Part shown: in pieces, positions 7,001 to 51,883 of the stretch
Layout of the letters: each line of letters opens with the position of its first letter
Position numbering within the stretch: position 1 is the first letter of the stretch
Source of the DNA: Phytoseiulus persimilis
Taxonomy: Eukaryota; Arthropoda; Arachnida; Mesostigmata; Phytoseiidae
NCBI GenBank assembly: GCA_037576195.1
Contig: CM075102.1
Location: forward strand, 44,264,745-44,328,744
DNA length: 64,000 nt
Direction of reading: 5' to 3'
Notes under the pieces: generated by a model
Seen by the model: only the letters and a program-made list of their open reading frames with translations
What the model was told of the DNA's origin: nothing
Database searches by the model: none
Translations under genes and position numbers: made by a program

Positions 7001-8100
7001 CCGTCTCGAATACGAACCGTTGTATGAATAAACTGGCGGATCCGAATGAATCATCAGCGTCTCTGGGCCACAAATCTTTGATCGTTATCTCGACTACTCC
7101 GGAAGCATTACTCGACTTGTGCTTCTAGCTCGTTCTGGGGGTCTTCATACAATTGCATCTTCATGTGTCACGGGTTAAAAGTTTCAAGTTAAAACCGGCC
7201 GCCGGGAGTCACTCAAGACAAACGGAAACACTTTCAGACAGGAGTGCACGCTACGATTTGAACGCAGCCCGTTGTTCGCTTGGAGGCTATCAACACGATG
7301 AAGCCGGTGCTCGTGGTCAGTTGATCAACGGTGGGTTCGGAGCGAAGTTTGATTTGTGAGTGGTTCCACATCTCCGATCGCAACAAAACTCAACAGAGAA
7401 AAGCGCTGGTTGTGTTCCGTGCGAGAGTGCTCTCAAGACGGATCTCCCAATCGCCTCCCTGCCATAACACCAAACCAAAGAGCATGGAATCCCGAAGAGA
7501 ATATCCGCGCTGGTTATTCGCAGCAGAGCGTCCTGGACTCCGGAATGTCGTGCCTAGCCGAATAGCTGGACTCCTGCGAGGAGATTTCGATGCTTAGGAA
7601 ACCGCTCAGAAAAATGAAGGAACAGCTTCCCATGTTCGCTCCCCTCTCCGCAGGGCAAAACATAGGAGCCGCCATGCTAGGATTGATCTCTGAGTGCAGC
7701 ATCGACCTCGACCAAATTTTGATCGAAGACCATCGGGAAACTCTTCTGCCGTTCCAATCCAAATGACTGACGGCTTCAGAAGTTTGCGGTAAGATTAACA
7801 AGGCAGCTTCGGGCAGACTTTGGTGAGTTACGAGACGAGCTGTGCCGAGCACTGTGAAACGTTCGTGATGGAGGTTCGGATCTAGAAAGTGCTCCTTCGC
7901 GTCCTCGCAGTATAGTGTTGGAGGTGAGCTTTTATTCACTACTGCAAACTCGGAAGGTCGAGAAGTCACCATATGTTTGATTTTTACCGATCGATATTCG
8001 GCGTTAAATATCGGTGGTTCGAAGACCGTACTCTACTCGAGAAGGAGCAAGCGAGCTCGATTTTCAGATAAGTGCGCTTCACACCGGTGTCCAAGCATTA
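4100..8100. other. 4 kb without a recognised gene
   Basis: The open frames here are short and show no family resemblance, apart from a possible decayed LTR-retrotransposon scrap near 5200-5290 (SRFIGFYRQH resembles the RFLGxxxxYR motif after gypsy reverse transcriptase). The minus-strand frame 7514-7972 (152 codons) is open but unrecognisable. No cassette-type promoter element is visible before 8107, so V1 is probably the first cassette. Confidence 0.45.
4819..4876. repeat. short imperfect tandem repeat, about 29-bp unit
   Basis: The block CGGCTTCATGC followed by TCGGGyTCGAtTTT occurs about twice in tandem, with partial copies on each side (the span 4802-4887 includes them). No coding or regulatory role is evident. 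Confidence 0.6.
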
Positions 8101-8106
8101 CCACCA

Positions 8107-8175
8107 GGTGGAGCTACGTGTATTGGAATTCACCCGAGACTGTCAACCGTTTTTAGGGTTAATGGTCGCCATTTT
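8107..8175 (+). promoter_or_regulatory. V1 promoter element pair
   Basis: A diverged CTCF-like core, GGTGGAGCTACGTGTATTGG (8107-8126), is followed by a YY1-like GCCATTTT at 8168, 47 nt before the ATG. Confidence 0.6.
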
Positions 8176-8214
8176 CGATGCTCACATTCAGCTCCAAAAT
8201 AGCGTGCCGATCCC

Positions 8215-9063
8215 ATGATGCATAAGGGAATGATTCCGAGTGCGGTCTTCACGTTTCTCTCAATTATTCACTGCAGTTTTACAGAAGCTAAGCAGAGTAA
8301 GTGGATGCATATCCGATTGCCGATAGGAGCTATCGCTCTTGTTGAGTTCCAGTTTCTGTTCTGGCCTTGAACGAAACTTCTAAGGAAATGTCGACAGAGC
8401 GGAAAGTACTCGGGTTCCATCGCATTCCAGCGTTAACGGTGAAACCGTTCGTTTTCCCCTCCGAAGCTCAACTTGGGGACAAAATCGACGCATTCTGCAG
8501 TGCGAAGTACTCCTCTTCGAACTTGGCGTTTTCATGGCTCAAAGACTCTCAGCCGTTACACTCCGGTAGCAGAGGAATACTCGTGGAGCACTCGCCTCAC
8601 TTCGCGGCGTTAATCATCAATCGTCTCCAAGCTGAGCATATCGGGAACTATACGTGTGTTGTCAGCAGCGCGGCTGGCGAGCAAGACCGATACACGGCCT
8701 CTCTTCTTGCAAGAACTCCGCCAACCTGGTTGACGAAGCCTCATGATATCAAAGCTTCAGTTGGGAGCAACATCGTAGCTACGTGTGATGGTGCTGGCCA
8801 TCCACAACCTAATATCACCTGGCTCCGAGAAGGCAAGATTGTTTCGGACTTTGCTGTCGTCTGCCATCATCAGTCACCCGATGGATGGCTGCTTTCTTAC
8901 TCTGCACTCTTGTCAAGCGATCTCATTGCAGGAAACCCAGAACATCATGGCACGCGAATGGATTTCAAACAGATTCAGAGGTCTTCCTCGGGCTCCTATT
9001 TTTGTGTTTTATCGAATGGTGTCGGTTCGGACTTGATGGCGGAATTCTCCATAACACTGACAT
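8215..9063 (+). CDS. sDscam: sDscam variable cassette V1
   Basis: Exons: signal peptide 8215-8296 (MMHKGMIPSAVFTFL and a hydrophobic run), Ig1 plus half Ig2 8431-8832, half Ig2 8932-9063. Ig1 has C and W in place (CSAKY...FSWLKD) and IGNYTC; Ig2 ends GSYFCVLSNG. The middle donor appears to be GC rather than GT (GAAG|GCAAGA), which keeps phase 1 where the other cassettes have GGAG|GT. It is closest to V2 (both read FPxEAQLG before the first Cys). Together they form the most diverged subgroup at the 5' end of the array. Confidence 0.85.
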
Positions 9064-12000
9064 GTGAGTCGGCTCATTCGGATAGAGGATCTTGCATGAT
9101 GTCGAGTTCTACTTTCCAGTGCGAAGCTTAGAATCATGTCGGTTTGTCACGAGTTTCCTATGAAGCATGATCCGCAGAGGGATTCCTTCAGAGATTCGAG
9201 TACCTCCACCGAGAAGACTGGAGGTCTTCGTGAATGCTGACTCCGGCATGTGGGAAGAGAGTTGCCCATTCGAATGTGGCCGCGCCATCAAGATTTCGAG
9301 AACACTAACGCTAGGTGGCACCACGTGTACTGATCAAGTCGATGATACTTGAGTTGTGGACAAGATTGGCTGCACACTTCAGACGCCATCTTTGTCGGAG
9401 ACCGAAGATGACGGAAGTTTTGCTCAAACTGGTTGTTGCGTTTTGCTATGTCGGCAATGTTCCGGGCGTGATATCCGCTCGTTCCACTGAGTTCCGCCCC
9501 GATGTCAATGGAGAAGTCATCAGCGAGAGAACGAGGAAGTCCGACTTGCCAGCCGACGTCTCGGGTCCTCGGGTGAAGAACTTTTCGTTTCCTGCTGAAG
9601 CCCAACTCGGACAACAAATCGAAGCCTTGTGCACCGTCAAATTCTACGTCCCGGAGTTGGTTTTTTCTTGGCTGAAGGATGGTACTCCAATATCCGGTAA
9701 CGGTGATGGCATCACTCTCACAAGGACCAAGGGCTTCCTCGCGTTTTCCATAGATTCTTTGAGACCGAGTCACTCAGGTAACTACACCTGTGTGGCTCGG
9801 AGCCCTTCGGGACAGGACAGCTTCACGGCGCCTTTGGTGGCTTTGACAGCCCCGTATTGGCGATTCGTTCCGGAAGACGTTCTTGCCCGAACTGGGAGCT
9901 CTTTGGAGCTCAAATGTGAAGCTGGAGGCTACCCAGCGCCCAACGTCACGTGGCATTCCAGTGGTGAGTACCGCCGCTCCATAATGGTATGGTATGTTAT
10001 GCCATGCCCAATGATCCAGAGTTCAACGTGCACAGGTGTTGGAGTACTTCTCGTTTTCCATGCACGCATACTTGAATGAATGCGTCAGAGAGCAGCCTTT
10101 TCCAGCGCTGGAAGGGGCCGAGGTTGGGAGTCGAATCCATTTGGAACGCATAGCCAAGGTGAATGCTGGCGAATACACTTGCAGTGCAAGTAATGGAGTC
10201 GGACAGCCAATAAGGAAGACTATCTCCCTCATCATTTCAAGTATGAGCTCGATTCTCTTTCCGGAGTGACCTAGTTAGGCCGTGAGTTTTGAGTTCGCTT
10301 GTTTTGGCGCCACATGACAGTCCATCGATTTTTCTGAAGCACAGGAACCTCCTAGTGTGTAGAGCGCGACAGAACGAGACAGCCTCCATTCGTTTCAATG
10401 CATGTGGTCGCTGAACTCGTTAGTACTGCATTGGACTCACCGAACTGCGACGAACTGATTCTGAATGATTCGTGGATCGCGGGTTCGATCTCATTCCGTG
10501 TATGGGCGATAGGTGGCGCTCCCTGTACTGTTGTGATTTCGTGAGTGCGACAAATGCTCCAGAAACATTATCGAGTGTGACATGTATCCCCGGAGGTTCT
10601 TCAAGTGAAGGATCTTGGTGTCAACTTCACTTCTGACCTTAAGCCTGAGACTCACACCTATAATGCGATTGCGAGGGCAGGGAGAACTGCTAACTTCGTC
10701 CTCCGAGCGTTTGATTGTAGAATCCCTGACGTCTATTTTCGTGCCTATAAGTCCCTTGTCCTCCCCTCTCTCCTGTATGGTTCGGAAGTCTGGCGGCCTT
10801 GGCTCAGGGGATCCACTGATGCCTTGGAGCGCTTCCAACGCAAATTCGTTAGGAGGGCTGCTCGCAAATGCCGTATCTCCCCTGACTTACTCTCTCTCCC
10901 TCCTATACATGATGTTCTTGATGATAAGGATCTCAAGCTAGCGCACTGCATCCAGCGCCTGAATTTTACTAGGAATTTTTTTGTGACCCGTGTTACTAAA
11001 ACCCGTTCTCGGCGACTTTTCGTTGTACCGCGGGCCCGTAATAACACTGTATCGAATAGTTTTCGCTGGAGACTATCTAGTCGATTTAATCGTATTTCCC
11101 CCGGTACCCAGTAATAAACCGTGCATTACCAAAAACATGTCACTATGGAAGCGACTGCCGATCATTCGAAAAAAAAAAAGTTCCGTCCTGCTGGTGAATG
11201 CTAAGCTCCCCGTCGGAATCGACGTCGAGTGTGCCACATCGCAAGCGAAACTTTTATGGTTGAAAGATAGCGATGACCTCAGTTCGCTGGGGCTCACATG
11301 TGTTACAAAATCCCAATGAGGGAGCGTCCTCGTATAATGTGAATCCATTAAGCATCCAGGTCAAAAGATATGCGTCACGAACATGACGAAGATGCGTTCG
11401 CTGCTGATATCGGAATATTGGCTACTTTTTGACGCTATGATGAGATTGAATATTCGCGAAAGACAGAGGATGTTTCGCGCGAAAACAGCTTGGAACAAAG
11501 TGTATTGGCTCGCTCCGGTGGATTGTGTTGCAACATATTGCTACGGTAACACGGTAGGTGCAGGTTGCGCGAAGACATCCAAGTACACGATCATTGTTGC
11601 AGCTGAAGCGCTGTCAAGATCCAATGGGAACGCAGTCCCACCAAGCATTGGGAGAACATCGGTAAAGGAATTTGACAGTCATCGACGATTCCCATCGAGG
11701 TGCTTGAGCTTGGATTTCCCATTCCCATCCAGAAGCGAAGTTCCTCGCTCCATTCACGCAGATCTGCTTGACGAGAATTCAAGAGACGTAACTTCTCGTA
11801 CTCTCGAGAAGTCCTCCATCCATGAGCGAGACTTGACAGATTCGCGCCCGGAGACCTCGTGTTCGGTGGATTCGAAAGCGCCCGCGTCAGCGAAAGTTGA
11901 CGTCAACCGCCGATGGATGGCGCCACGTGTACCACGAAATTCAGCCAGATTTTACACTGGACACTGACGCCATGTTTGACTCTATACGAAGGAATCCTGC

Positions 12001-15000
12001 CCACAGGGTTCACGATGGAATGCTGCCTGAAAGTTCTGATACTTTTCTACATTTTGATGAAGCCAGATCCGATTGGTAAGCATTATCGTCTTGTAGTGAC
12101 CTCATAAAGAATTTTTCAAACCTTGCACTTCCCCACAAGAAGTGAGCACCAAACCTCACTCGCCACTGATGGATATTGTTACTGAAAGGTGCGTTCAGAG
12201 TGTCTCCTTTCGGCTTCCCTGAAGTCAGCGCCGTGGGGAGCCGGATCAAAGTGGTGTGCTCTACGAATGAGGAAGCAGCAGCCCTGTCGTGGTTCAAAGA
12301 TGGAGCTGCACTTCCGTCACGCGGCGATGGGATCGCCGTTGACACTGTGGGAGACTTTTTGGTTTTGCTCATCGAATCTGTGAAACCAAGACATTCTGGA
12401 AACTACACGTGCAAAGCTTCGAACTTCAAGGAGGAAAGTTCGTTCAGTGCAACCCTCATCGTCACCGCTTCTCCAGAATGGACCAGCGTCCCCAGAGACT
12501 TATCCGTGAAACAAGGCAGTGCTTCCGAGCTTCGATGTGTCGCCGACGGGTTCCCAGAACCAAAAGTTGAATGGTTCCACGGTGACGGTTGGTAGATTGA
12601 CTCGTGGGAGAGATCGTATAGACGCTGTTAGGAGTCTTCGAGACACCCTCATGTAATTGTGAATTCAACCCGCAGACATGATCGCCGTGGGTCGAACGCT
12701 TACACTGGCCGATGCCAGTCGGGAGAAATCGGGAACTTACAAATGCTTGGCTCAGAATGATCACGGTATAATTGAGCATTCGTTTCGAGTTGCAATCATA
12801 CGTGAGTTGACGAGAATCCTGGACTTATCCATGAATGTCTCAGAGTCACCGGTAGAGAAGGAGCCAAACAACACAGATAATTCTTCTCTGAAGTGCATCA
12901 GTAAATGAGTCTGTATCACGACTCGGGAACCGCCTGCGGCTCTTCACGTGATACCAACATTGGCTGGTAGTCCATCTGCATGGGGAAATCCATGCAACTA
13001 CCACCGGGATACATGAACCAACGCGGATAGGGAACATTGCATTCCTCCAGAGTCCTCGGGGTCTCGAATTCGACTTCAGTTGAAGAAGCTGGTGAAGGAG
13101 TAGAAGACAGTCGAGCAGAGACCGGAATCGGGTGGTCTCTGGCGCAACCTCTCGCGAGGCTTGAGGGCACAAAGTTGGCTATCGAACTGCTTATATCGGA
13201 GAAGGCACCTTCCACGATGGGTCCGCCGAGAGATTGCATGCCGAGGAACTATCCATCCTCGATTGCGTTCAATCTGTATATGGAGCGGGACAGATCGGGA
13301 ATACCAAGGTGATCGGGAGCTCGCGTCTCTGGTTGCGGTCGTCGATTCCAGTATCCGACTCGAGACGGCTCCCATGCGGATTTGAAACGAGCGCGTTCCT
13401 TGAGAACAAATTATTGGCCGAAGGATGGAGCCACCTGTACTACACGCGAGCCGATCCATGAATCGAGCTTGGCGTTACATTGAGTTCAGCCATCTTTGTG
13501 GTTTCCTACAATCATGGGTTCGAGTACTGCGGTTCGATACTCTCTCTTCCTGTTGTTTTCCCTAGAAGTTCGCCGTGCTCTGGCGGGTAAGTATCCTTGG
13601 ATCTGCGGAGAAAGCTCGTATCGCGGAGCCTTGACTTTCTAACAGAGGCCCTGCCTCCGAGTTGCAGGCATACCCAGTGCGCCGATTTTCGCCATGCCCG
13701 AAGAAATCACTGTTGGCTCTGACATAAAAGTCACATGTTTTTCGAGCGGAGCGGTTAGTTTGGAGCTGCTAAAAGACGGAGTCAAACTCCAGCATGGTGG
13801 AAGAGGGTTAGAGATCACGAAGTTAGGCAGCTTGCTCATTCTGTCCATTGATAAGGTCCTCACTGAGCATTCAGGAAATTACACTTGCATCGCTCGCAAC
13901 GACGAGGGCAGCAGCAATTTCACGAACTCTCTCTCTGTGGCTGCTGGTCCAACATGGCTGGCGAAGCCAAGTGAGAAAGTTGTCCTCAGCGGTGATTCAC
14001 CAACGACCCTGAAATGCCAAGCGGAGGGTTCTCCGAGGCCATCCATAAAGTGGCAGAAAAACGGAGGTTTGTTCTTTTAGTCGATTCTTGGAGAGTATGA
14101 CATCCCACTCGATATCCAGGTCAGTGAGAACGGCTCATTCTCAAACCCAGAAACGATCGCGTTCACTGAAGACTTACATCTGCAAAATATCGGCGAGAGG
14201 ATAGCTGGTTGTTACACGTGCATCGCTCAGAATATACACGGCACAATCGAGTATCAGTTTTCCGTGTCATCACTTCGTAAGTGGAAGTTCAGCGTTTGTT
14301 AACGGCAGACAGTTGCTTCTGTCAAGTTTACAAAGGCCGCCAAAACGTAATGAGGGTTTCGGCCGCTGGATGGCGCCACGTGTATCAATAACGACGTCCA
14401 ATCCGAGCAGTACCAAACAGTTTGCTGTTCGCCATATTGGCTCGTGAGAATCCCCCGACATCATGGTTCGGCCAAAAATTGTTGCCTGTGCCATCGTCTT
14501 GTCGATATCACTCGCATCCTCCCTAGCAGGTACGTCGTCCTTCCTGTCGGCGAATTTTAAAGCCTCGAGTTCCCTGAAATATCCGTTCGCAACATGAGAG
14601 ATCCTTGATTTCTCCCAGGCCTCCCGCAAGTTCTTCCCTTCCGGTTCTCCCAACGTAACATCGGAAGCTACATCAGAGCGGTTTGTGTATCCGAGGACGC
14701 CACATCCCTTGGATGGTCGAAAAATGGCCGGCGGCTCTCCGACGGAGACCATGGGATCTCACTGAAACAAGTTGAGGGTGTCATGATTCTATCGATTGAG
14801 AGTCTCAAGCCTGAACACGCTGGAAACTACACTTGTGCGGCTCACAACGATGAGGGCAGCTCGGAGTTCAGTGCGTTTCTCTCGGTCGCGGCGCCGCCGA
14901 CATGGCGAAAAGTCCCGCAAGACGTTGCACTATCAAGAGACCAGAGGTCCAACTTGGAATGCGCTGCCTCAGGTTCCCCGGAACCCAATATCACCTGGAC

Positions 15001-18000
15001 GCGTGGCGGAGGTTAGATCCGGCACCGTATTCCTGTTTTCTTTTCTCGCTCCAAGATTCCGCTGAAGAAAACAAACTTCGATTACAGAGCCGGTCCATAC
15101 CGGGAGCATTTTGGTCGTCGAACCAAAACTCAGAGTCATAGAGGGAACATATTCCTGCGAAGCAAGGAATGAGCACGGTGTGCTGACCCATGTCTTCAAA
15201 GTGTCTGTTTTCAGTGAGTTTTAACATTGTTTCGGCGAATAGTATGGGCTCCGACACCACATGTGACGTAAAGGGGAACCTGAGAGTTCGAGTCCCAGAC
15301 AAGGGAGCAACAATTTTCCATTATTCCTGCCCGGCTAGGAGTGTAGCATTATGTATGAGAATCGTCGTTGCGACTCCTGCCGACGATGAGTTCCGTTTCT
15401 AGCAGGGAAAGTAATTCCAAATTAGGGAGTACTGCCCGCATAGGTATGCTCGAAGAAGATTGCGTGCCAGTGGGAATTCAAAGTAGGCGCCATGGCCCTA
15501 CTTCCATGTGATCGCCGATGTGTGGCGCCACATGTACTACAAGAATATGTCCAATCGAGCTGGTCGTCGCCATCTTTGTAACATCAGAGTGATTCCACGA
15601 TGCAGCTCCCAGGAGTGCTGGCGCTTGTCACCCTTTTTTTGGAATCCACGCACGCGTCAGGTATGATGAACGATTTCGTGAATATCAAGAAATCAAAACA
15701 AATACGGGTCACTCATATACAGTACTCGGAAAGTTAATCCACTCCCAGGCCCTCCGAGCGTTTCTCCGTTTGGCTTCCCTGAGGAGAATAGACTTGGTGG
15801 CAAAGTCAACGCATTCTGTACTTCCAACGATCAGAGTAGTCTGAGCTGGATGAAGGATGGGCGCGTCATCGACAACGGGAACCTTTTCACTCTGAGCAGG
15901 CTCGATGGAGCTCTGCGACTGGTGATCGACAACTTGACTGCAAAACACAGCGGCAATTACACTTGTAACGCTCGGAACACGTATGGCAGCGGAAGTTACA
16001 GCGCCGTGCTTGCTGTAATCTCTCCTCCGGTGTGGGCGAACAACTTGGAAGATCTCACGCTGGCTCGTAATGGGCCTGTGAGGCTCTCTTGTGAGGCAAC
16101 TGGTCACCCTGCTCCCAACATTGCGTGGATCAAAGATGGAGGTAAAACGTGATCAGCGTGTTCGCTCAACCTCAAAAGTAAGAATGGGCAGACGATTCAG
16201 AGTCGTTTATACAACTTGCAGAGCGCATCGACAGCGGGAGTATTTTGAGCCTGACAGCGAGTCGGGCGACATCTGGCATTTATGTGTGTAACGCTTCCAA
16301 TGAACACGGCAGTATAACTCGGAGCGTCAAAATATCAGTCACTCGTGAGTTTGTTTTCCGCGCGCTTCGGTCAGTTTACTTTATTGGCCGATGGATGGCG
16401 CCACATGTACCATATCGTCGTCGTTCGAGGGAACCAGCGAGACGTTGATACCCGCCATTTTTGTGCCCGAGTCCACAATGGAAGGGAGTGGTATCATGCT
16501 TGTGGTTGTATCATCTTGTTTATTGATCAATCGGATCGCTCTCGCAGGTATGCTTGGCCTTGCTCCGTTTCATACCTCAGAAGTTCGATGGCAGAAGGTC
16601 GTTTGCGATTCATTCAATCTAGTTTCAGAACTCCCGAGCGTGCCCACCATCGCCATACCCGAGAAAAACTCGGTCGGCTCAGATGTGAAAATTACATGTT
16701 TCTCTTCTGGTGCGAGCGGTCTCACTTGGCTGAAAGATGGCCTTGTTGTGGAAGACGGGCAACGGAACACACGGATCATGAAAATGAGTGGCTTATTGGT
16801 TTTATCGATTGACGAAATCCAGGTGGAACATGCGGGAAATTACACCTGCATCGCCGAGAACAATGCGGGCAGCAGAGCCTCCAGTGGATCTCTGAACGTA
16901 TCCGCATCACCAACTTGGCTGGAAACACCCGAGGAGACTATTCTGAGAGGCCAATCTCCTACCAGTGTGAAATGCCGAGCAGTGGGCTTCCCCAAGCCAG
17001 CAATTTCTTGGTTCAAAGAGGGAGGTTAGCCCAACAGCGACACACATTTCGCAAATGCATCCGTGGTTCCCCCAGTCAACAGTTAACCTGGGGAGTGTTT
17101 TCAGAAATTGTCGCTTCTGGCGAATCGTTGAATTTGGAAGCTACGAGCCCAAATGAAGCTGGCCAGTATTCTTGTACCGCTACTAATATTCACGGACTCA
17201 TAAAACATGACTTCAAAGTTATTGTGTACTGTGAGTAACCCTGAACTCGACACAACGTCGAATGATCGGTTCGCATTCCCCGCCAGCAGATGAGTTACGA
17301 TTTTGGCCGATGGGTGGCGCCACATGAATCGTGTTAGAAACCGAAATCCAAAAGCATCACATAGCTCGTTATCCGCCATTTTGATATTCAGTTTTCGTAT
17401 GAAGTCATGGCTGCTCTGCGACTCCAAGCTCTGGGTTTGTTGTGTGTTGTTCATCTCGATTTCGTCACTGCAGGTATGAGGCTTTCCTTTCTTTACAAAT
17501 GGAACTATCGAAAAGATACGCCTGATGCAAGTCTCGATACCTCTCAACAGGCAGCCCACAGATCGCCCCATTTAGATTCTCGCAGAGGAACGTCGGAAGC
17601 TCTGTCAAAGCTGCGTGCATTTCGGAGGATGCAACATCGCTTGTTTGGTCCAAAGATGGACGAGCGCTCCTTGACGGCGCTGACGGAATTTCGCTGACGC
17701 GAGTCGAGGGCGTAGTTATACTGTCCATAGAGAAACTGACGCCTCAGCATTCCGGCAATTATACATGCACTGCGCGGAATAGTGAAGGCAGCTCTTCGTT
17801 GAGCGGGGTTCTGTCAGTATCAGCTCCGCCGAAGTGGCTGAAAATTCCTCAAGACACAGTTCTATCGAAACTGCAGAGTGCGAAACTCGAGTGTGAGGCT
17901 TCGGGCTACCCCGAGCCCAACATCACGTGGACGCATGCAGGAGGTCAGTGATTAGAGAGCGTTCGGTGGGTTGTCCCCGAATCGATCAAACTCATTGGCA

Positions 18001-24000: not shown

Positions 24001-27000
24001 GATATAGTTCACGAGCCAAGCCTGACGACGTTGAGTGGAAGTTGTGCGAGTTACTCTCGATTGTTTCAACAAGGCTTGGTGCCATCTGGTTCACTTGCGG
24101 CTAAGGACTTATGAACAGCCCACGTCAGAGAGGAGATCTGAGAAATGTTCCGTTGGGAGAAGAAGTTCGGTTGCCGGAATCCGGCGCAGTTCGCTAGCAC
24201 TGACCGGCCTGCTCGTAGGCAGTCATCGCTTCAATCTTTCACTATGACGGCCCGGTTTGAATGAACATATACACTGGACGAGCACGGGATTTGAGGAACG
24301 GTGATCTACCAATAGCAATGCTAAGCCCTCGAGTTTGTGAAACGCGACCTCGAAAATTCCGCCAAGAAGTTAGTTCTCGACAATGGCCGACGGATGGCGC
24401 CACGTGCATCGCGGGGCTACTTGGACGGGATCCCAACTGTCACTTGAAGGGAGCCATTTTTGTTTCAAACGTCAGCTTCGGAGTCTGCGAGTACCATGCA
24501 GCTCACACAATTTCTCGCGCTGTTCGTTTTGTTCAGCTTCGGCGAATCAGGTATGTTTCCTCGACCAACCTGCCGTTATCGCGACCATCCCGCGCCCAAG
24601 TGTGACGCTCCATTCCGACGTCATTTTAGGAGTTCCCGCGATCACACCCTTCAGCTTCCCGGATAATCCCTCAGTAGGAAGTCAGATCAAGGTGATGTGT
24701 TTCGCTGGAGGCGGAAGCAATCTCGTGTGGCTCAAAGATGGAGTCAGACTGCATAACGGCACCCACGACATTGGCCTCCAGCACTTCAATGGATTTCTGG
24801 TGTTATCCATAGACAATGTGCAGCTCCGGCACACAGGAAACTACACTTGCGCCGCCCGAAATGGCGATGCTGAAAGTCATTTCAGTGCCCAATTGGAGGT
24901 GTCTGCATCACCACAATGGACCTCAGTGCCGGAAGAGGTCGTCATTGCGAAGTCGAGCCACAGACTAGAGCTCAAATGTGAAGCTTCGGGACACCCAAAA
25001 CCGAACATAACCTGGCTGAGAAAGAATGGTCAGTTTGAAGAGCTTATTCGACATCCCTTCATGGGTCGGTGAAACTATTCCGACTTTCGATGTGGAGGGG
25101 CCGTCTCATAGACCTCATAGATGAGCCTATTTCAGAGAAAGTTCAGGTCGGCCCGAGCTTCGACGTCCTCAGCTCTGGAGAGAGAGGTTCTTATAGATGC
25201 GTGGCGAGTAACGCTCACGGCACAATTGAGTACGATTTCGAGCTGGCAGTGCATTGTGAGTGTTGTTGAGGTACAGTCTCATCTTGAAAATGCCGCCTCT
25301 TGAACGTAACACTTGGAATGGCCGATGGGTGGCGCCACATGTACCGTGAACTGCGTTATCTCAAACACCGTCGCCATGTTGGCTGCGTTATAAAGCTCTG
25401 AAGGCAACGTAGATCCAACGAGAATGATTCGGTTCTATTCAGTGATTATCTGCGCGCTTTCAACGGCCATCGCGGGTATGTACAAACGCGAAAAGTGCTT
25501 GAAAGCTGCATAGGGAGGGTCGGTTACGACGATGACGGCGCAGTTCAAATGTTGCAGGGAAACCTCCCATTTCTCCTTTCGCATTCCCCGAGAATGTTCC
25601 AGTCGGGAATCTCGTGAAGGCCACTTGTGTGTCAGGAGCCGATGTCATTTTGCAATGGTTCAAAGACGGTCAGTTGCTACGGAGCGGTGTTGACGGAATA
25701 GAAATCAAAGATGTTGAAGGCATCCTGATCCTCATGATAGCCAAAGCACGGTCCCAGCACTCGGGGAACTACACCTGCGTAGCGCGAAACTCTGAAGGAT
25801 CCACTGCGTACAGCTCCTCGCTGGATGTGGCTTCTCCACCTGAATGGGTGAAGGTTCCCAAGGACCTGGAAGTCTTGGATGTCCGCTATTCTAGGACGCT
25901 GACGTGCGAAGCATCTGGTTTTCCTGCGCCCAACATATCATGGGCACTCGGTGAAGGTATATCGATTTCACTTCCCGATCAGAAACTCTCCGCAAAAATA
26001 TGACCCAGCACTGAACTCCACAGAGATCATAGGATTCGGAAATCAGTTCCTATTCGCGGCTAACAGGCGAGGCCGGCGACAGAAGTATTCATGCAGAGCT
26101 TGGAATGCATATGGAGACATCGGATATGATTTCGAGGTAGCCCTCTATTGTGAGTGAATAATACAGAGTCTGAAAGCGCTCAGTGGTCTCTCGGCCAACG
26201 GATCGGTGCTGGCTAGAACACTTGAACAGTCATGTGGCTTCATGATTGTGCACGTCAGCGGAAAATAGAGCTGTTACTCGGAACTTCCACCCGGAATTCA
26301 AACTTTGACCGCCCGATCGAAGTTCCATGTATGGCCGACGGATGGCGCCACCGGTACCGCAAATCGATCTGAATCAATTTCCCCCATTAGACGCCATCTT
26401 ACTTCAGTTGTGGTGTTGAAACTCAACATGATAGAGGTGTCGCTCTCACTATTATGGATTGTGTTTGCTGTCGTGGACGCTGGTATGTCATATATTCTCC
26501 CTGATTCATGAACTTCATCCCTGTGGAAAGTCGAGTCAATGAACTATCAGGATGCATACCGGACTCATATTCCAGGGATCCCCAAAGTGTCACCCTTCGT
26601 GATATCTGAGAATACTGCGGGCTCCGAGCTAAAAGTAGCTTGCACGTCAAGTAGCGCTGAGGAGTTGATTTGGTTGAGAGACGGTAGACCACTAAGCAAC
26701 GGTGGTGAGAACATTTCCATAAGGCAGCTCGACGATGTGGTGATTTTGCAAATCAAGCACTTGGAGCCGTACCACTCGGGTAATTTTACCTGCTTAGCGC
26801 GAAACTCCGAAGGCAGCTCGAGCTTCAGTTCCGTGCTGACAGTGGTTGCTCCCCCGAAATGGGTTCGGATACCCGAGGAAAAAGCGATGATCTCATCGGA
26901 CACCAAACTATTATGCGAGGCGTCCGGAAATCCTAAGCCTGAAATCACGTGGAGCAGGGGCGGAGGTTCGTTATTCTCATCAGTGCCTTACCGGCGGAGT

Positions 27001-30000
27001 GAATTGATCTTAGCAGATAGCAGCTCCTAATCGTTCGATCCATTATAGTTACGGTTTGGCACGGAATGTCATTCGAAATAAGTCGTCGCCAGGATTCGAA
27101 TCCATCCGGAATTTATCAATGTAGTGCCACGAACGAGTATGGCTCGCTGAACCATACTTTCGAGCTTTCGATCTCTCGTGAGTTTCATCCGGCAGTCTCG
27201 CGGAACCGAGAGCCGTCGAAATCAAAGTTAGCGCCGTTACCTCAGTTCCATGGGATGGCCGATGAATGGCGCCACATGTGTTATCAAAAACCTCGGGTCG
27301 AAAAGCTAAAACTCGCCCCGAGGAAGCCATCTTTGTTCAAAAGCGAACTGTCAGAAGACGCAGACCATGAACGTTCGGAGATTATTCGTTGTGTTACCTG
27401 TCATGATGAGCTCGATTCAAGCAGGTATGGCTTTCTTCTGGCTCGGAGCCTTACTTCCTCCGAAAGTTGGTTCCCATGGCGTGGGTTCACCTGTGCCAAT
27501 GATTCTAGGCTCGCCTCCCATCACGCCCTTCAGCTTCTCAGAGACCAATCTCGTCGGAACGCAGGTCAAAATTACTTGCTTCGCCGGAGGCGGTGGGAAA
27601 ATGAGCTGGCTCAAAGACGGAATAACCGTGAAAGAGGGGGCCGCAGACATGAGTATCCAGTATTTCGACGGACTACTCATCTTGTCGATCGACTCGGTGC
27701 AACCGAAGCATGCGGGCAACTACACTTGTTACGCTCAGGGACCAAACGGCAGCACTAATAGCCACAGCTCGTATTTGAGTGTTTCTGCGCCCCCGCAATG
27801 GCTGTCGGTTCCAGAGGACCTCATCGTCACAGAGTGGACGAAAAAGCTCGATATTCACTGCGGAGCTTCAGGTCATCCGGAACCAAACATCACTTGGTTC
27901 AACGGAGACGGTCAGTCGAAATCTCAGGATTTAGATCTTAGCCTGTGTTTCATAAATCACGATGTCCGATTGTCTTCCGTGATGCATTGCAGAAGCGATT
28001 CATCGAGGACCAATACTGACCATCGATGGGGGCGCGAAAGGAGGCTCTTACATTTGTGAGGCGGCCAATCCGCACGGGAGCGTGAAACATAATTTCAAAC
28101 TGTCCATATACAGTGAGTACGGAGTCCTCCGGCTCTGTGGACTTGAATCGACCGCCGATCGTGCCAAACTTTGTGAAATGGCCGATGGATGGCGCCACGA
28201 GTATCGAGTCAATGATTTAGAAGCTATGGGAGTCGCCATGTTGTTCGACGCAATCAAGAGTCACAGTGCCAACAGGCAGCCGATGAAAATGGGATGCCGT
28301 GGATTCTCCATTTTCTGTGCGTTGCTGTGCCTCAGAACTGTTTATTCTGGTACGTCGATCCTATCCTGAGCATTCGTTTGAAGGAGAAACATTCATTTCG
28401 ACAGGGACACTGATTTGTGCGCTCATTTTAGGGAAGCCGTCGATATCCTCTTTCGCATTCCCCGAGATCGTTTCATTGGGAGCATCAGTTAAGGCAACAT
28501 GCGTCTCAGAATCACAAAGCTCGTTGCAGTGGCTCAAAGATGGCGATCCGTTGAAGTCAGGGGCGAAAGGAATCGACATCAAGCATTTCGAAGATATATT
28601 AGTATTGGTGATATCCAGCGCACAAGCAGTCCATGCGGGGAATTACACTTGCACGGCACGCAATCGGCATGGAACGAGTTCATTCAGCGCGTCATTGAAG
28701 GTGGCTGTTCCGCCCGCTTGGATCAAAGTCCCAAAGGACGCCAGTTTTCTTGGGGTCTCAAGCGATAGAGAACTCGTCTGCGAAGCTGCCGGGTACCCAG
28801 AGCCCCGAGTGAAGTGGTATGCGAATGGAAAAGGTAAAAAGCATCGCAGCGATGCCCAGTTTGTTCGGATGTTTTCGGGAGTCTTATCCGCAATGTTCAC
28901 TGCAGAAATATTCTCTGGGAAGAGGTTCTCGCCTGCGTCAACTCGGGGACGGTCTACGGAGTATTCTTGTCAAGCCGAGAACGCCTATGGAAAGATTCGA
29001 CATGATTTCAAAATCAGTGCTGTTCGTGAGTCTAAACAGAACACTATACGTGGAGTGGAATTCGTCGATAGCTAAATATTACGCCATGCCTCTATTGAGT
29101 TTTATGGCCTACGGATGGAGCCACCTGTACCTTAGAGACGTGATATATGAGATGAGCATCCCGATTTAAGAAATCCTCGGAGTCACTTGTGTGCTCGTGT
29201 CCTCATGGATATGTGGTATCGGTTCCTAGTCCATTCGGTGTGCATGCGGGCACATGACTTCCCCTCCCCTCTGGAAGGCGATTCCCGAACCCTTTGCTGG
29301 TCCAGATGACTTCTGATTTACGGTATGACTTCACGGCAGCAACCGAGTACGTCATAATTCGACGGAGCTCCGATGTGGGCGTTCGGTACTAGCTTCCCCG
29401 TTCAAGAGATGTCGACCGCCGTGGAGTCGGACGGAAATTCAACGAGTCCTGGACCCGATTCCGTCGTTGAAACCTCTTCAAGAATGCCGCCCGTTTCTGA
29501 CATCCGGCAAATGGCCGATGGATGGCGCCACCTGTACCATGGTTTCGCTCGGTTCTCAAATGTGAAGGGCGCCATGTTGGCTTCCTCTGCGGATCGAATG
29601 AGCTTGACTCAGTGTCGACATCATGTGGTTGTACATGACGAGCGTAATCCTCACGACCGCAGCACATCACTGCAGAGCAGGTAGGCTCGCACGGAGCGTT
29701 TAGTGGATTCAGAGAGACGCGAATGGCTGGGGAATCAAGTCTCCCTCCGTTTCCGACAACAAAGCTTTTACAGGCGCTCCTTCGATCTCGCCTTTCGGGT
29801 TCCCGGATCGAGCAGTGGTGGGAACGGAAATCAAAGCAACTTGCATTTCGAGTGATGCAACAAGTTTGACATTACTCAGAGATGGAACCTTACTGAGGAG
29901 CGGCATTGAGGGAGTCGAGATCAAGCATTTCGAAGGGATGCTGCTCCTGGTGATTAACTACGTTGACGTCAGAAATGTTGGGAATTACACTTGTAAGGCT

Positions 30001-33000
30001 AAGAATCGGGAAGGAGTGACCTCCGTCAGTGCTTTCCTGAGCGTCGCAGCTCCACCGAAATGGATTTCGAAGCCGACAGAAAAATTCGTTGTGTCCGCGA
30101 GAGATGAGAAGGCTCTCAATTGTGAAGCGTCGGGTCACCCGAAACCCGACATAGTCTGGACCTACAACGGGATCGTGGTTCATCGGGGCTCATTGCTGTC
30201 TTTCAACAAGAAAGTGAAACCTCAGCCCGGTGCCTACACTTGCGTAGCTACGAATCAGCACGGGAATATCAGTCAGGTCGCACATGTCTCGGTGCATCGT
30301 GAGTTTTCTCTCGATCTCGTGGAAGATTCCTCCTTATGCTTAGGTTATCATTCGGAGCAAACAATCCGGAATCTATTCGAGTCTCCCGACCCGGCTCCAT
30401 CAAGGCTGACGTTTGCGTCATTCTGTTTCGTGAGCCGCAGCTGGGATGATTTCGAGCGAGATTTCAGAAGGCGGCTTCAACAATTACTGGAATCTTTCAA
30501 AAAAGCCGCGGGGGACGATACTGGAACAAATGGCCGATGGATGGCGCCACGAGTATCGCAAACTATTGCTCGAGACCAAGCTGGCCGTAGCATGGCAAAC
30601 GCCATATTTGATCCTCATTCGCAGTCCAAAACCAGCTGAACAGGCATGAGTCAAAATAGAAACTTTGTTCTGATGATGTTCATCATGATACGTGGTGTTC
30701 TGTCAGGTATGTTGACGATTGATTTACTTCTGTACCATTCGACGGCTACGAATGATCGGGACGACTTTTGGAACGGGATGGCAGATATACGAATGGCTTT
30801 TCAGAGAAGCCTTCCATCACCCCCTTCGGATTCCCGGATAAGACAAGCGTGGGCAGTTTGATCAAAGTATTCTGCTATTCAAGTAATGCCGACCAGCTCT
30901 CCTGGCTGAAGAATGGAGCCGTGCTCCAAAGTGGCCTCGACGGCGTGGAATTGAAAATCTATGAGGACTCACTCATTCTCATCATTCCGCGTGTGCAACC
31001 CGAGAACTCCGGGAATTACACCTGTGCTGCCGGAAACAAAGACGGTCAGAGTGCCTACAGCGCTTCGCTGGTCGTCCCATCTGCCCCAGAATGGAGGAAA
31101 CGTCCTCCTGATCGGAAGGTGGTATCGACGGCGGAATCCGGCGGACTTTCGTGTGAGGCTTCAGGATATCCTCAACCCGTGGTGGAATGGCTCAAGGGCG
31201 GCCACCGTTTCCAGCAAGGTGCCGAGTTGCGACTCGATACTTCGGATCAGAAAGCTGTTGCGGGAGTTTATACTTGCGTCGCCATCAACGACTACGGTCG
31301 CATTCAGCAAGATGTGGAAATATCTTTCGAAAGTAAGCGTGTGGAGTCTTCGAATATTGCGCCCCCGGCTGTTCTGTTGCAAATGGCCGGTGGATGGCGC
31401 CACATGTACCATTGGAAGAGAGATGGTTTCAAGTTGACAGAGGAATGGTTATCGCCATTTTTGTTTTCCGATGCCGTTCTGATCGGGTGAAATGTTCAGC
31501 GGCATTAGATGCGTATTGTGGGTTGTCGCTGTGGATTCCGTCCGCGCAGGTTCGTTGATTTTTCGCGTTTCGAGCGTATTGGCGACTGCTTCCCAAGGTG
31601 AATGAATATGGAAATCTAGCGTGAGGTTCAAACGATTCTAGGGAGGCCCATTATCACACCCTTCGTATTTCCTGAGACCAGCATAGTTGGGAGTGCGGTC
31701 AAAGTTGCTTGTATTTCGAGCAATGCTGACACATCATCTTGGCTGAAAGATGGGAAACAAATCGAGAGCGGCGCGAACGGGATCGAGATCGACAATCTCA
31801 GAGGAGTCATCCTCCTGACCATCGGAAGCGTTCAGCCACAACACTCTGGAAACTACACCTGCGAAGCGAGGAATCAGATCGGTCATAGCAGTTGGACTGT
31901 GGCTCTCGTCGTCCCGTCAAAACCAACTTGGACATTGAAACCACCGGAGCGCGCGATTCTGTCCGCGGTTAACAGCTCCGAAATCCGCTGCGAAGCCTCG
32001 GGTTACCCGGTGCCGGATGTTAGGTGGTTCAGAGATGGCGAAATTTACCCGACCGGGAATTCTCTCCGCTTCGATAGATACGACGCAACTATCACGGCGA
32101 CCTACACTTGCGTTGCTAGTAACAAACACGGAGAGATTGCGCAGAATGTCATGGTGTCAGTGAACAGTAAGCTCTCTCCTGAAGCTGATTTGAAGATTTG
32201 CGCCGTAGAGCCTGTTGTTGTAAATGGCCGACGGATGGCGCCACGCGTACTTTGTTCCAAGCTTTGCAGTTCAGCTACAACCTATGAAACGGCAGCCATG
32301 TTTCCAATCGCTGACACTTGAATAACGGAGATGTTGCCAAGTTTATCCGGAGTGTTTTTGTTGCTGCTCACGCCTCAACTCTGCCTGTCAGGTTCGTTTC
32401 ATGATGGCGATCTATGAGGGCGTATGATCAGTCGTGCCGAAGTTTACCGAACCTGTTCCAGGCGTGCCGTCAGTATCCCCTTTCGCTTTTCTGGAGAAGA
32501 ACCCTGTGGGAAGCTTGATAAAAGTCACATGTTTCTCCGCGTCAGCTCAATCCCTCAATTGGTTGAGGGATGGGAAGCGAGTCGTAAGCGGAGCAGGGGG
32601 CGCGGAAATCAAAGCTGTTGAAGGCGTGCTGCTCCTGGTGATCCGGAATGTGCAGCCGGAGAATTCTGGGAACTACAGTTGCGTAGCCAGCAACCGAGAA
32701 GGCTCTGCGAGCTACAGCGCTTTCCTAGCGGTGACAGCTGCCCCGACATTCCGGAAGACTCTTCGGAACAGAACAATCCTATCCTCGGAAGAACTCAGCC
32801 TAGAGTGTGATGCTCATGGCTTTCCTGAGCCGGAACTACTCTGGCGGAAGGATGGGAAAATCCTGCAGCGGTCGAAGGTTCTCAAGATTGGGAAGCATGA
32901 CCGGTCCGCTGGTGGACGATACACATGCTCAGCGTCGAATGAATATGGTTCGATTGAGCAGAGTGTCGAGATCTCAATTTCAAGTAAGAAATGTCTCAGT

Positions 33001-36000
33001 TGAAATTTTCCGCCGGCATAGCGTTTCTCTGAAACGGCCGGAGGGTGGCGCCACATGGATCGTCTTTAAAAGGGATAAATCCCAACAATCGCGATCCACG
33101 GCCATTTTGATGCATTTCGAAACAATTTGTGCTCTTCGGATGTACGCAAGATGTGGCCCCACGTATCATTGATAATTGTTTGTTTCTTCCAACGCAGAGT
33201 TTTGGCAGGTCAGTGGTTTCAAGAATACCGATTTGGGATTCACACGAGTGATCCGCGGTCAACTGATGCTTGAATTGCTCTTCCATTTCTCTTGTCAGTC
33301 TCTCCTACGGTGGCTCCTTTCACATTCCCATCGTATGTACCGATCGGCACCAAAATCAAAGTCATGTGCTCGTCGCTCGAGGAAAGTTCTCTATCGTGGG
33401 CGAAAGACGGCAGGACTCTGCGGAGTGGATCTGATCCCAGCATCGTTCTGAACAAAGTTGAAGACGTGTTGTTGCTCTTCATAAGCGGAGTACAGGTCAA
33501 ACATGTCGGAAACTACACCTGCACGGCTCGAAATCGCTTCGGCGTCTCTGATTTCACCGCGTTCCTCTCTGTGGCGGCCCCTCCCGTGTGGAAGATTCGA
33601 CCGATCGATACAAACGCCGGCAATGCAGGAATGGACGTCGTTTGCGATGCAGAAGGCTATCCACAGCCTGAGATTGTTTGGCTCAAAAATGGAGGTTGGT
33701 GCCTCCATCGAATTTGCGACTGCTGAACAGAATCAGGCACAAGTCTCTGTAGTGCGACGATCCCCTCTGAGGTCATTCGAACGAAGTCCTGATACCCAGA
33801 GTGAATCACAGCCAGCTTTGTCAAAACCTACGACGTTACAGAAGTCGTGCGAACCGGCGCCAAGCTCAGCTTGGGAAACCTGAGCTCACAGGGCCCGGGG
33901 GTTTACACTTGTAATGCCAAGAACCCGTACGGATCGCTGAGTCAAGACGTGAAAATATCAATGAGCCGTAAGCATAATCACCGGATTCCATGAGTGTCGT
34001 ACAACTTTTCGCGCCATTGGGGTGTTTCACGCAAACGGCCGGTGTGTGGCGCCACGGGTACCACCTCGTATTCTAGCATGCATATTATCCACGCCATCTT
34101 GTTAGTTTTTAGACCTGTGAAGTGTGCAAACATGTTCCTTCTGCTACTTAAATCTATCGTTCTAATTTTGGAAATAAGAGTGATCAGCTGCGTGACTTTG
34201 GAGGTTGGAAAGTTCAGTTTTCCGACGACTAACGGTGTTGGTTCACGCGTGAAAGCTTTGTGCTTTGCAAATGAAGATAGCGACTTGAAATGGTACAAGG
34301 ATGGATTAGAACTGGGTTCGGAAAACGATGGGATATCTCTCCGGAAACTGGACGACGCTCTAGTGCTCAGCATACAAAACGTGCAATCCAAGCACGCAGG
34401 AAACTATACATGCGAGGCGACGAATCACGGAGGGACCAGCGGATTCAGTGCTATGCTCGCAGTCAATGCTAAACCGCAATGGGTATCAACGCCAAAAGAC
34501 ATCACTCTGACTCGAAACTCGCGCGCTGAACTAGAATGCAGAGCTGAGGGATTCCCTGAGCCCGTCATAACATGGAGCAAGAACGGAGGTGAGTGCTCAC
34601 AGAACTATTTTCCGACGCGGAATCGAGGTGTACTAGTGCCAAAAATCCTAGCAGTGTCTGATCTATTTCAGAGAACATCAAGAACGGCTCATTCCTTCCC
34701 ATTGACAGGGTGGAAAGCTACACGGCTGGTCCCTACGAGTGTGAAGCGTCAAATGAGCACGGCGTCATTCAGCATCGTTTTCGCATATCGGTGTTTAGTA
34801 AGAACATCATGAATACGTACCGTTAGCGATTCCTCCACGCATTGTTGAGAGAGATGAGCGGCAACACAGAGCTAGAGCGTTTGAACAAAGCTTGCCTGCT
34901 TCAAGAACCCTTGAATAGCCATAGTTCTACACCCTCGAGAACACTTTTCATGTTATCTGACATCGATGATTGGCATCGAAGGGATGTCTCTTTCTTCTCG
35001 TTTGAGAAGTGTACACTGATAATAATGGTGTCTGCAGTTGATCTTCCAAACACCGGCATTATTCGTTTGTCAGAGCTTTCCTGTACTGGTGGCTCCACAC
35101 TCTGTGCTTTTTAGGAAGCTCGAATAAGTCAGATTCAGTTAATTCGTTCCTGGTGTACTTCATGGAGCCACTAGTTCCATCTGAGCACTCGGTGTGAGGA
35201 TATCAGCGCTCTGCTGTCGCCATTCTCACAAACAGTGAACAATGATGACACCGATTTTGTGCGGGGCTTTGTTGATTTTTACGCGGATTCGGGTCGCTGA
35301 AGGTGAGTTCGGAGTTTGACTCTCATCGAATATGACGGCGTATATAGCTCGACGGAAATAACAATCCTTCGCCCTTCCAGCATCCGCCCCGCGAATCCAA
35401 CCCTTCACGGTCCCCGAGAAGCTGACAGTCAACGATTCCCTCAGTCTGTTTTGTGCGGTGACGTCCGGTGCCAAGCCCGTAACATTCTCCTGGAGGAAGA
35501 ATGGACGTTTCTATACCGGTGAAAGTGTGACGCAGAGCAACGATCGCATGTCAGTTCTCGAAATCAGCCCAGTGACCATAGATAGCAATGGAAACTATTC
35601 GTGCGTTGTTCAGAACAGTTTCGGAAAGGATGAATACACTACGGCAGTCGACGTGAAAGGTTGGTAAATGTTTTCTCTTGTTGTTGGTTGGGCCTTGGAG
35701 ACGGTTTTCTTGCGAATGCCTTGTGGAAACGGTACGCGAGATGATCTAGTGCTCTCCTACCGTTCGGCGATACTCCCAGCCGAGGAATGCGGAACGTTCC
35801 GCTTTCCTCCTCCGGTGGATTCTCGTAGCAATCTCAATGTTATAGCTTCAATGCCGACGCACCGCTCAACGAGCTTCGTCGCGTTCCGGGTTAGAGAGTT
35901 ATCGAACCATCTCAAAGCTGTTATGTAGCGGCCTCCCTGGTTCAGCTCGAATGTAAACAAACAGTCGCCGCAGCTCCGAGCGACCTGACAGTCCAAACGA

Positions 36001-51055: not shown

Positions 51056-51883
51056 TCAATCGTCGAAGTTGGTCGTTGAGTCGATACGAGTCCCCTTTTT
51101 GGAGTCAGTGACTCGCGAAGTTTCATTTGACGTTCTGTTCTGCATCTACGCAGCGAGATCATTGCAGGACAGGGTCCATGTCAGGGGGCTCGTCACTGAC
51201 ATTCCCTGGAGAACACCGGAGTCGAGCGCTCGAATACAGTACAACCTCGATTATTTGAACCTCGATGATTTCAACCCTCGATCCTAACAATGTTTTTCCG
51301 CATCGATTGGCTGAAATAGTCGAGGTTGTCCAGTATCGTATTCCGATGACATCACGAGCGCTTTCGGAATCAACGAGTGAATCACCCATCGAGGTCGAGT
51401 CGTTTGCCCTAGAGCTCTATGGGGGCAAGAGCGGCGATCGGCTTCGGAACGAAAACTCGGGAAGAGTCCGCACCCCACCTCCCTGGTGAGGCTCGGAACT
51501 CACCGTCGAAGATGTTGGACTTTCCTATCTCTCACTAGCACACTCCTGCTTAGAAAATGTTTGCGTATCGCAGTTATGCGGCCGCACGTTCCTCTGCTAA
51601 AGACGCCGGCGCCTCTCGCTCTATTGCTCGCAGGCATTCGACTTCTGTTCCGATCGTAAGCGCTCGCCTAGGGTAGATGTTCTAGGGTTTCGTGCCTGCA
51701 GGATCACCAGACGCTTAACGCTTCAGACGTGAGACGACGTTCCCACGGACACTGGAGAGCGATCTAGACCAACTCTTACATAACCAAGAAGGCTCGATTT
51801 CAGAACGCGACGACAACAGTTCCTCGTCGTCCCCACTCTCGTATTCGGTGACATCTTCGCCCGTTTGTGGAAGGTATTCGAAA
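51056..51883. other. upstream region of sim
   Basis: No gene is recognised. It must hold the sim promoter and 5' UTR if the first coding exon at 51884 is also near the transcript start. No TATA box stands out. Confidence 0.4.

Follow-up and report, generated by a model that had tools for sequence, protein, structure and literature searches.

The stretch analysed here, hereafter the window, comprises 64,000 nucleotides of Phytoseiulus persimilis DNA (C2:44264745-44328744; the assembly holds 181 Mb in 127 contigs, four of them large at 54.7, 52.0, 38.9 and 28.1 Mb). One sDscam gene of the beta type fills its bases from 8.2 to 42 kb, with a tandem array of alternative cassettes upstream of a constant region. 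A short element resembling a CTCF site stands before these cassettes, followed by a YY1-like site and in most cases preceded by a third conserved block, and the same parts recur at a second sDscam array on another contig (C3), an arrangement that recalls the alternative promoters of the vertebrate clustered protocadherins (Pcdh).

Elements are named by the position of their core (8106, for example, denotes the 30-bp element 8096..8125). Matches to GGATGGCGCCACATGTACC with at most three mismatches number 21 in the window (20 forward and 1 reverse) against 0.01 expected, and 19 of the 20 forward matches precede a cassette, the remaining one (29113) having no cassette of its own. A 30-bp matrix built from 22 window sites (consensus AATGGCCGATGGATGGCGCCACATGTACCR; p values are per position under the base composition) necessarily scores its training sites well; on leave-one-out these sites reach 15.7-49.1 bits. 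The cassettes at 18518, 27264 and 34044 lie more than three mismatches from GGATGGCGCCACATGTACC and still have clear elements. Cassettes 1 and 2 (8106, CCACCAGGTGGAGCT; 9313, ACGCTAGGTGGCACC) score poorly with the window matrix (0.8 and 4.9 bits) and highly with the matrix derived from the C3 array (21.8 bits, p=9e-9; 16.7 bits, p=1e-7), being canonical and near-canonical CTCF forms, respectively. The element of cassette 25 (35160) is degenerate, its 3.7 bits with the averaged matrix being at chance level over the window, so that it is plausible by place alone. Thus, the earlier reading of this stretch from its letters (the sequence-only reading), which had placed the element at all 25 cassettes, holds clearly for 24 of them and is doubtful for the last. 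As a negative control, eight stretches of 10 kb containing other Ig or Dscam-like genes were scored, and none has the element (best score, 6.2 bits).

Mean pairwise identity among the 22 strong window sites is 0.78 within the element and 0.28 in its flanks (ungapped columns; random, 25%), in agreement with the claim that conservation lies far above the flanking DNA. Since the flanks of these tandem copies have decayed to near saturation, the element itself appears to be under constraint. Against the vertebrate CTCF consensus CCASYAGRKGGCRSY (15 positions), the 22 strong sites match at 10-13 positions and 24 sites at 10-14, and 80 of 20,000 column shuffles of the window matrix fit this consensus as well. 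A 3' extension, CACNNGTAYC, adjoins the element. Two readings of its letters were set aside: an E-box (CANNTG), which the sequence-only reading had entertained and which is not needed, since the core tolerates A, C or G at position 12 and varies at position 13; and GGCCGAT as a separate motif, this prefix being instead the 5' part of one 30-bp footprint.

Downstream of the element, GCCAT is present in all 25 window cassettes, beginning 28-54 bp past it, and GCCATNTT in 23 (the exceptions being 20954 and 35160). The interval from GCCAT to the ATG, put at 23-58 nt by the sequence-only reading, applies to 22 of the 25 cassettes under a simple signal-peptide rule; in the other three, whose start codon is therefore uncertain, the first qualifying ATG lies 3, 9 or 13 nt from GCCAT. 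Forward elements 10511 and 29113, which lack a working cassette, have no GCCAT within 120 bp; both were outside the matrix training set.

The features of the window are given below, the rows that state no other basis resting on scoring with the 30-bp matrix.

8220..36615, forward: 25 tandem sDscam cassettes, beta type, each with a signal exon and two Ig domains; limits approximate, from translations
36870..42022, forward: constant region with Ig, FNIII-like, transmembrane and cytoplasmic exons; translation read by eye, limits approximate
8096..8125, forward: CTCF-like element of cassette 1, canonical CCACCAGGTGGAGCT; YY1-like GCCATTTT at 8168-8175; C3 matrix 21.8 bits
9303..9332, forward: CTCF-like element of cassette 2, near-canonical, 16.7 bits; GCCATCTT at 9385-9392; third block, resembling a cell-cycle genes homology region (CHR) and cell-cycle-dependent element (CDE), from 9267
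10501..10530, forward: element without a working cassette, 20.6 bits, p=3.7e-9; followed by a fragment like a long interspersed nuclear element (LINE) and a broken Ig exon
11905..11934, forward: element of cassette 3; GCCATGTT at 11969-11976
13413..13442, forward: element of cassette 4; GCCATCTT at 13489-13496
14358..14387, forward: element of cassette 5; GCCATATT at 14431-14438
15510..15539, forward: element of cassette 6; GCCATCTT at 15569-15576
16383..16412, forward: element of cassette 7; GCCATTTT at 16454-16461
17302..17331, forward: element of cassette 8; GCCATTTT at 17375-17382
18508..18537, forward: element of cassette 9, 3' half divergent, leave-one-out 15.7 bits; GCCATTTT at 18584-18591
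20024..20053, forward: element of cassette 10; GCCATGTT at 20084-20091
20944..20973, forward: element of cassette 11; GCCATTGT at 21007-21014 (NTT broken)
21920..21949, forward: element of cassette 12; GCCATGTT at 21978-21985
22890..22919, forward: element of cassette 13; GCCATGTT at 22953-22960
24382..24411, forward: element of cassette 14; GCCATTTT at 24453-24460
25317..25346, forward: element of cassette 15; GCCATGTT at 25373-25380
26330..26359, forward: element of cassette 16; GCCATCTT at 26393-26400
27254..27283, forward: element of cassette 17; GCCATCTT at 27326-27333
28177..28206, forward: element of cassette 18; GCCATGTT at 28235-28242
29103..29132, forward: element without its own cassette, 35.0 bits, p=1.9e-12
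29510..29539, forward: element of cassette 19; GCCATGTT at 29571-29578
30529..30558, forward: element of cassette 20; GCCATATT at 30601-30608
31382..31411, forward: element of cassette 21; GCCATTTT at 31454-31461
32223..32252, forward: element of cassette 22; GCCATGTT at 32295-32302
33033..33062, forward: element of cassette 23; GCCATTTT at 33101-33108
34034..34063, forward: element of cassette 24; GCCATCTT at 34093-34100
35150..35179, forward: degenerate, doubtful element of cassette 25, 3.7 bits with the averaged matrix; GCCATTCT at 35219-35226; exon 1 ATG at 35245
36708..36737, reverse: lone strong reverse element (core 36709), 20.4 bits, p=4.1e-9; averaged matrix 21.7 bits, p=2e-8
9267..33015, forward: span of the third block, TTYRAA-N4-SCGC, an 18-mer in 21 of the 24 cassettes examined (cassette 25 left out)

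All 27 window elements before cassettes or cassette remnants point forward (including 10511 and 29113, and 35160, which was picked by place). A single strong reverse element sits past the last exon of cassette 25 (~36615) and ahead of the first constant Ig exon (~36880), and no GCCAT accompanies it; its 21.7 bits with the averaged matrix compare with 13.9 for the best of 353,638 background positions (60183, itself a reverse site of the window). This forward and reverse layout matches that of vertebrate Pcdh-alpha (PMC7087399, PMC7811963), so that the protocadherin parallel drawn by the sequence-only reading emerges stronger than it was claimed. At 35082, just before cassette 25, stands a weaker reverse hit (11.7 bits, p=2e-6 per position), a score close to what chance yields over the window. 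Two more reverse sites, at 60183 (13.9 bits) and 60354 (9.0 bits), were discounted, both being near background and the second lying in an open coding frame. A canonical reverse CTCF motif lies at C2:44335685-44335699, ~7 kb beyond the window.

Conservation of 0.42 at positions -40 to -31 of the window flanks pointed to the block TTYRAA-N4-SCGC, whose addition turns the tag, described as two-part in the sequence-only reading, into one of three parts. The corresponding 18-mer matrix, trained on the same cassette windows, finds the block in 21 of 24 window cassettes (cassette 25 left out) and 27 of 36 C3 cassettes, or 48 of 60 in all; nine control windows shifted along the sequence give 4-9 of 60. 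All 21 window blocks begin 43-47 bp before core position 0; at C3, 14 of the 27 begin 42-47 bp before it, 11 at 52-57 bp (one helical turn further) and 2 at 35 and 38 bp. The strict words TTYGAA or TTCRAA occur at -62 to -15 in 12 of 24 window and 24 of 36 C3 cassettes, compared with 9-10% of control windows. The reverse complement of the block, GCGS-N4-TTYRAA, has the CDE-N4-CHR tandem arrangement. DREAM and MuvB bind such tandems, with TTTGAA, TTCGAA or TTTAAA as CHR, GGGCGG or TGGCGG as CDE and a four-nucleotide spacer (PMC5716687), and Drosophila dREAM is recruited at CTCF/CP190 insulator sites (PMC4172637). Because the strict words are confined to part of the cassettes and the GC box is often degenerate, DREAM binding at the mite block is uncertain.

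The second array came to light with one Ig1 protein as query, which returned 51 genome matches, 24 of them in the window and 19 at C3:13.757-13.812 Mb on the reverse strand. In the 110 kb around this locus a regular expression identifies 36 Ig1 exons, with one Ig domain per cassette, the alpha type; judged by sequence pattern, the sDscam architecture is thus present as 25 two-Ig cassettes in the window and at least 36 one-Ig cassettes at C3. The k-mers enriched upstream of the C3 exons, counted independently of the window motif, include AGGGGGAGC, GGGAGCCAC, GGCGCCAC, CAAAATGGC and CAAGATGGC. Starting from the 15 top-scoring hits of the window matrix, refinement on the forward strand yields a C3 matrix with 41 sites above 8 bits (17.5-41.4 bits), all on the sense strand and five of them without a detected exon. 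For every one of the 36 Ig1 exons, such a site lies 250-600 bp upstream of the Tyr-Cys motif. The resulting consensus, TSTCCCRCNAGGGGG[AC]GCCACNNGTAYCG, contains the vertebrate CTCF consensus with a fit that none of 20,000 column shuffles equals; it corresponds to the canonical motif CCRCNAGGGGG[A/C]GCC, and the C3 array matches on average 12.6 of the 15 positions of CCASYAGRKGGCRSY. Mean pairwise identity of the 36 sites is 0.67 within the element versus 0.26 in the flanks (ungapped). On the antisense strand of the C3 stretch the best score with its own matrix is 2.8 bits, and the averaged matrix peaks at 11.5 bits upstream of the array (position 2716 of the 110-kb stretch) and at 7.4 bits within it, all of these scores being at background level.

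By their match to the consensus, the sites of both arrays are predicted to be CTCF sites, as the sequence-only reading had proposed from the window elements. The window array most likely began from the canonical form and then drifted, since cassettes 1 and 2 still fit the C3 matrix. The partner site recurs as well: AANATGGC lies on the sense strand within 75 bp of the element in 26 of 36 C3 cassettes, 23 of these 26 at 33-38 bp past it. Both AANATGGC and GCCATNTT fit the YY1/Pho motif and are putative YY1/Pho sites, again in line with what had been suggested for GCCATNTT. Their orientation is opposite between the two arrays while their place is conserved, and for this reason the pair looks as if it were kept by function rather than by simple copying. 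The placement of the two sites further suggests that transcription starts between the CTCF element and the YY1 site.

Genome-wide counts separate the core from its surroundings. The canonical CTCF form CCRSYAGRKGGCGCY, with a set letter near each end (ending GGCGCY), occurs 55 times against 14 for the reversed pattern; by eye, ~18 of the 55 look like members of two repeat families, and 2 lie in the C3 array. The core with its 3' extension, GGNGCCACNNGTAYYR, has 47 matches against 26 for its control; the window array accounts for 15 of them, the C3 array for 12 and the rest of the genome for 20. As these 20 stay below the control count, the tight core is, as far as such counts indicate, used elsewhere in the genome and the extended form is above chance at sDscam only. 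The window core alone, RRTGGCGCCAC with flanks, is in slight excess (170 against 133 for the control; places listed for the first 100). Pairs of the form GGMGCCAC N34-58 AANATGGC number 38 against 5 for the control (21 in the C3 array, 17 elsewhere), and pairs with GCCATNTT at the same spacing 32 against 10 (20 in the window array, 12 elsewhere). As side observations, GGCTGGCGCCACATCTATC sites are repeated on several contigs and are probably a dispersed repeat carrying a related core, and two apparent repeat families (GGCCGCCAGGTGGCGCTG.. and GCCCRCCAGAGGGCGCCG.CTGC..) on C1, C2, C3 and C4 carry canonical CTCF motifs, as if mobile elements had spread CTCF sites in this genome.

Genes for the corresponding proteins are present. 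A CTCF ortholog lies at C4:24776088-24777208, in which residues -1, 2, 3 and 6 of the finger 4 and 5 helices are those of human CTCF (ELSKLKR and DTYKLQR) and the finger 3 helix reads TSGELVR as in human (this finger is split between reading frames in the assembly). R-1 and D3 are retained in finger 7, whereas finger 6 is altered (QSNSLRA versus QSGTMKM in human). From structures of CTCF on DNA we infer that the triplets CCG-ATG-GAT-GGC-GCC correspond to fingers 7 to 3, with sub-sites 5, 4 and 3 fitting the consensus fully and sub-site 6 departing from it; the altered finger 6 coincides with this departing window sub-site (ATG instead of SYA). A YY1 ortholog at C2:16604975-16605443 shares 91-93% identity with human YY1 over the fingers, and a LIN54-type CXC pair lies at C2:50732414-50732819. 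C2H2 arrays are abundant, with 209 genome matches to the CTCF fingers.

What the sequence shows directly is which parts recur on two contigs, in what order, spacing and orientation, that they are enriched in the two arrays over the rest of the genome, and that genes for CTCF, YY1 and a LIN54-type protein are present. Our favoured reading, which we consider probable on balance, is that the cassette elements are forward CTCF sites within three-part alternative promoters whose choice would proceed through cohesin looping, convergently with the clustered protocadherins. Occupancy of the tags by CTCF is the firmest component, and we would expect it with high confidence; given such occupancy, looping-based cassette choice has a good likelihood. 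Each promoter would consist of a CHR/CDE-like block of the DREAM/MuvB type ~43 bp upstream, the CTCF site, and, about 30-50 bp downstream, the YY1 site, which would coincide with the transcription start or lie immediately past it; a short 5' untranslated region and the signal-peptide ATG come next. With CTCF on the forward sites, cohesin extruding from the side of the constant region would halt at one of them, and in the window gene this site may pair with the lone reverse site ahead of the constant exons; the loop would bring one promoter to a downstream enhancer. YY1 may set the start site or stabilise the loop, and the CHR block may keep unchosen promoters silent.

Several observations weigh against this reading. 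Loose CCASYAGRKGGCRSY is not enriched genome-wide (48 versus 49 for the reversed pattern), the window element departs from the consensus at the finger 6 sub-site, and the CACNNGTAYC extension lies outside the CTCF motif and may require another protein. Cassette 25 barely carries the element, and the reverse hit 80 bp before it outscores the forward one; AANATGGC is missing within 75 bp in 10 of 36 C3 cassettes, and the third block in 12 of 60 cassettes. In ~37 kb downstream of the C3 array, moreover, no reverse site exceeds 6.7 bits with the averaged matrix, so that a convergent reverse anchor at the searched distances is not general.

Among the alternatives, the one that survives best, although we regard it as unlikely, is a local promoter element bound by CTCF, in which CTCF, YY1 and the CHR factor would open chromatin and position the start, and cassette choice would be left to tissue factors and splicing without looping. 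The near-constant spacing to the YY1 site and ATG agrees with it, as do reporter activity from ~300 bp of upstream sequence and tissue-biased cassette use in a scorpion (PMC4835542). Uniform orientation (41 forward elements at C3 and 27 in the window), together with one strong reverse element at the array end, is however what loop extrusion would select and what a local opener need not have. Much less probable is pairing at the RNA level, with the reverse copy as a docking site for element copies in the pre-mRNA that would steer splicing as in insect Dscam1. The reverse copy does occupy the intron that leads to the first constant exon, and it is nearly complementary to the elements: the duplexes average -42.2 kcal/mol, compared with -19.6 for 200 random stretches from the vicinity (the best of these, -46.4). 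Any inverted copy would give such an energy, however, the C3 array bears the same element with no inverted copy found in ~37 kb downstream, and the element is positioned relative to promoter parts and matches a protein motif. About as improbable is a dedicated zinc-finger or other protein for sDscam promoters, resembling CTCF by chance or by descent from a CTCF paralog. The confinement of core plus extension to the two arrays (27 of 47 GGNGCCACNNGTAYYR matches) and the many C2H2 arrays of this genome would suit it, but the C3 matrix equals the CTCF consensus and canonical GGCGCY-ending sites are enriched elsewhere. That the element is a functionless residue of recent tandem duplication is practically untenable: such arrays do arise by tandem duplication, but flank decay refutes a neutral origin in this genome (0.28 in the window and 0.26 at C3, with the element at 0.78 and 0.67), the element recurs on another contig, and the YY1 site flipped its orientation and kept its place.

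A few further observations concern the array and its surroundings. The Ig1 of cassette 25 (35245-36615) is by eye nearer to alpha-type cassettes and its element is the weakest of the array; this cassette may be the oldest unit or a C-type-like unit. Between forward element 10511 and the broken Ig exon, a LINE-like reverse-transcriptase fragment (by eye) occupies 10580-11180; a mobile element seems to have destroyed this cassette, of whose GCCAT site nothing is left. Directly downstream of the sDscam gene, bHLH and PAS-like exons at 51719-60800 resemble those of single-minded. Ig exons of a different type (ending ..SEDR..) form a further long tandem series at C2:48630001-48680000, which lacks the promoter element.

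Vertebrate protocadherins and chelicerate sDscams have been likened to each other as convergent routes by which alternative promoters diversify proteins (PMC4835542, PMC5775551). If each promoter does carry a directional CTCF tag, this convergence would become mechanistic, with unrelated families using the same loop-extrusion switch, and the compact array (~30 kb) makes orientation, spacing and anchor testable. Our favoured reading, looping-based choice, predicts CTCF-dependent looping in arthropods, a group in which such looping is usually held to be weak. A broader proposal, tentative and in our view slightly more apt to fail than to hold, is that arthropods independently evolved the protocadherin solution in a neuronal recognition array of the Ig family, by combining at each alternative promoter a directional CTCF stop with a DREAM-type silencer and YY1, extrusion picking one cassette per allele; because the same tag stands on two arrays on different contigs, one machinery would yield a combined alpha-plus-beta identity code per cell.

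What would be new here is the use of CTCF-tagged alternative promoters, known in vertebrates, in an unrelated family and phylum and with recurring partner blocks. None of the open-licence papers searched (PMC4835542, PMC5775551, PMC10154414 and PMC8787164 among them) connects sDscam promoters to CTCF, to YY1 or to a motif common to them, with no search having combined sDscam with YY1; in the main texts of PMC4835542 and PMC5775551 the word 'motif' is absent and CTCF appears once, in the reference list of PMC5775551. Promoter elements of sDscam were earlier predicted with a Drosophila neural-network program (PMC4835542), and Yue et al. (2016) found that ~300 bp upstream of two scorpion sDscam-beta6 cassettes sufficed for reporter activity in fly S2 cells, with tissue-biased use (PMC4835542).

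In its gene structure the mite locus is like other chelicerate sDscam loci, with tandem 5' cassettes of Ig7-8-like domains, alternative promoters and a constant Ig/FNIII/transmembrane part (PMC4835542, PMC5775551). In mammals, CTCF-YY1 site pairs are linked to X-chromosome inactivation. Mammalian CTCF-YY1 co-bound sites likewise combine both proteins in the same regions, linked to active regions, but are scattered, whereas the mite has a set arrangement in ~60 repeats at two loci (PMC4056453). The third block shares with CDE/CHR promoters a TTTGAA or TTCGAA word four nucleotides from a GGCGG-type box; those promoters drive cell-cycle genes, whereas the mite block faces the opposite way and stands before recognition-gene cassettes (PMC5716687), and its proximity to CTCF sites parallels the association of Drosophila dREAM with CTCF/CP190 sites (PMC4172637). 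Like the mite arrays, vertebrate clustered Pcdh (alpha, beta and gamma) have tandem variable units with promoters of their own, in which a forward CTCF site precedes the ATG by a near-constant distance; one or more reverse sites lie downstream there, as does the one strong copy in the window gene, and in both systems the last variable unit lacks a good site, the Pcdh alpha-c2 promoter having none (PMC7087399, PMC7811963). By contrast, the mite cassettes are multi-exon and, from their translations, encode Ig-like domains rather than cadherin ectodomains, which places the gene in the Ig/FNIII family and outside the protocadherins; its reverse site, of which one strong copy was found, lies in the intron before the constant exons; and its recurring partners are YY1 and CHR/CDE-like blocks, where Pcdh-alpha has a second, exonic CTCF site (PMC7087399, PMC7811963).

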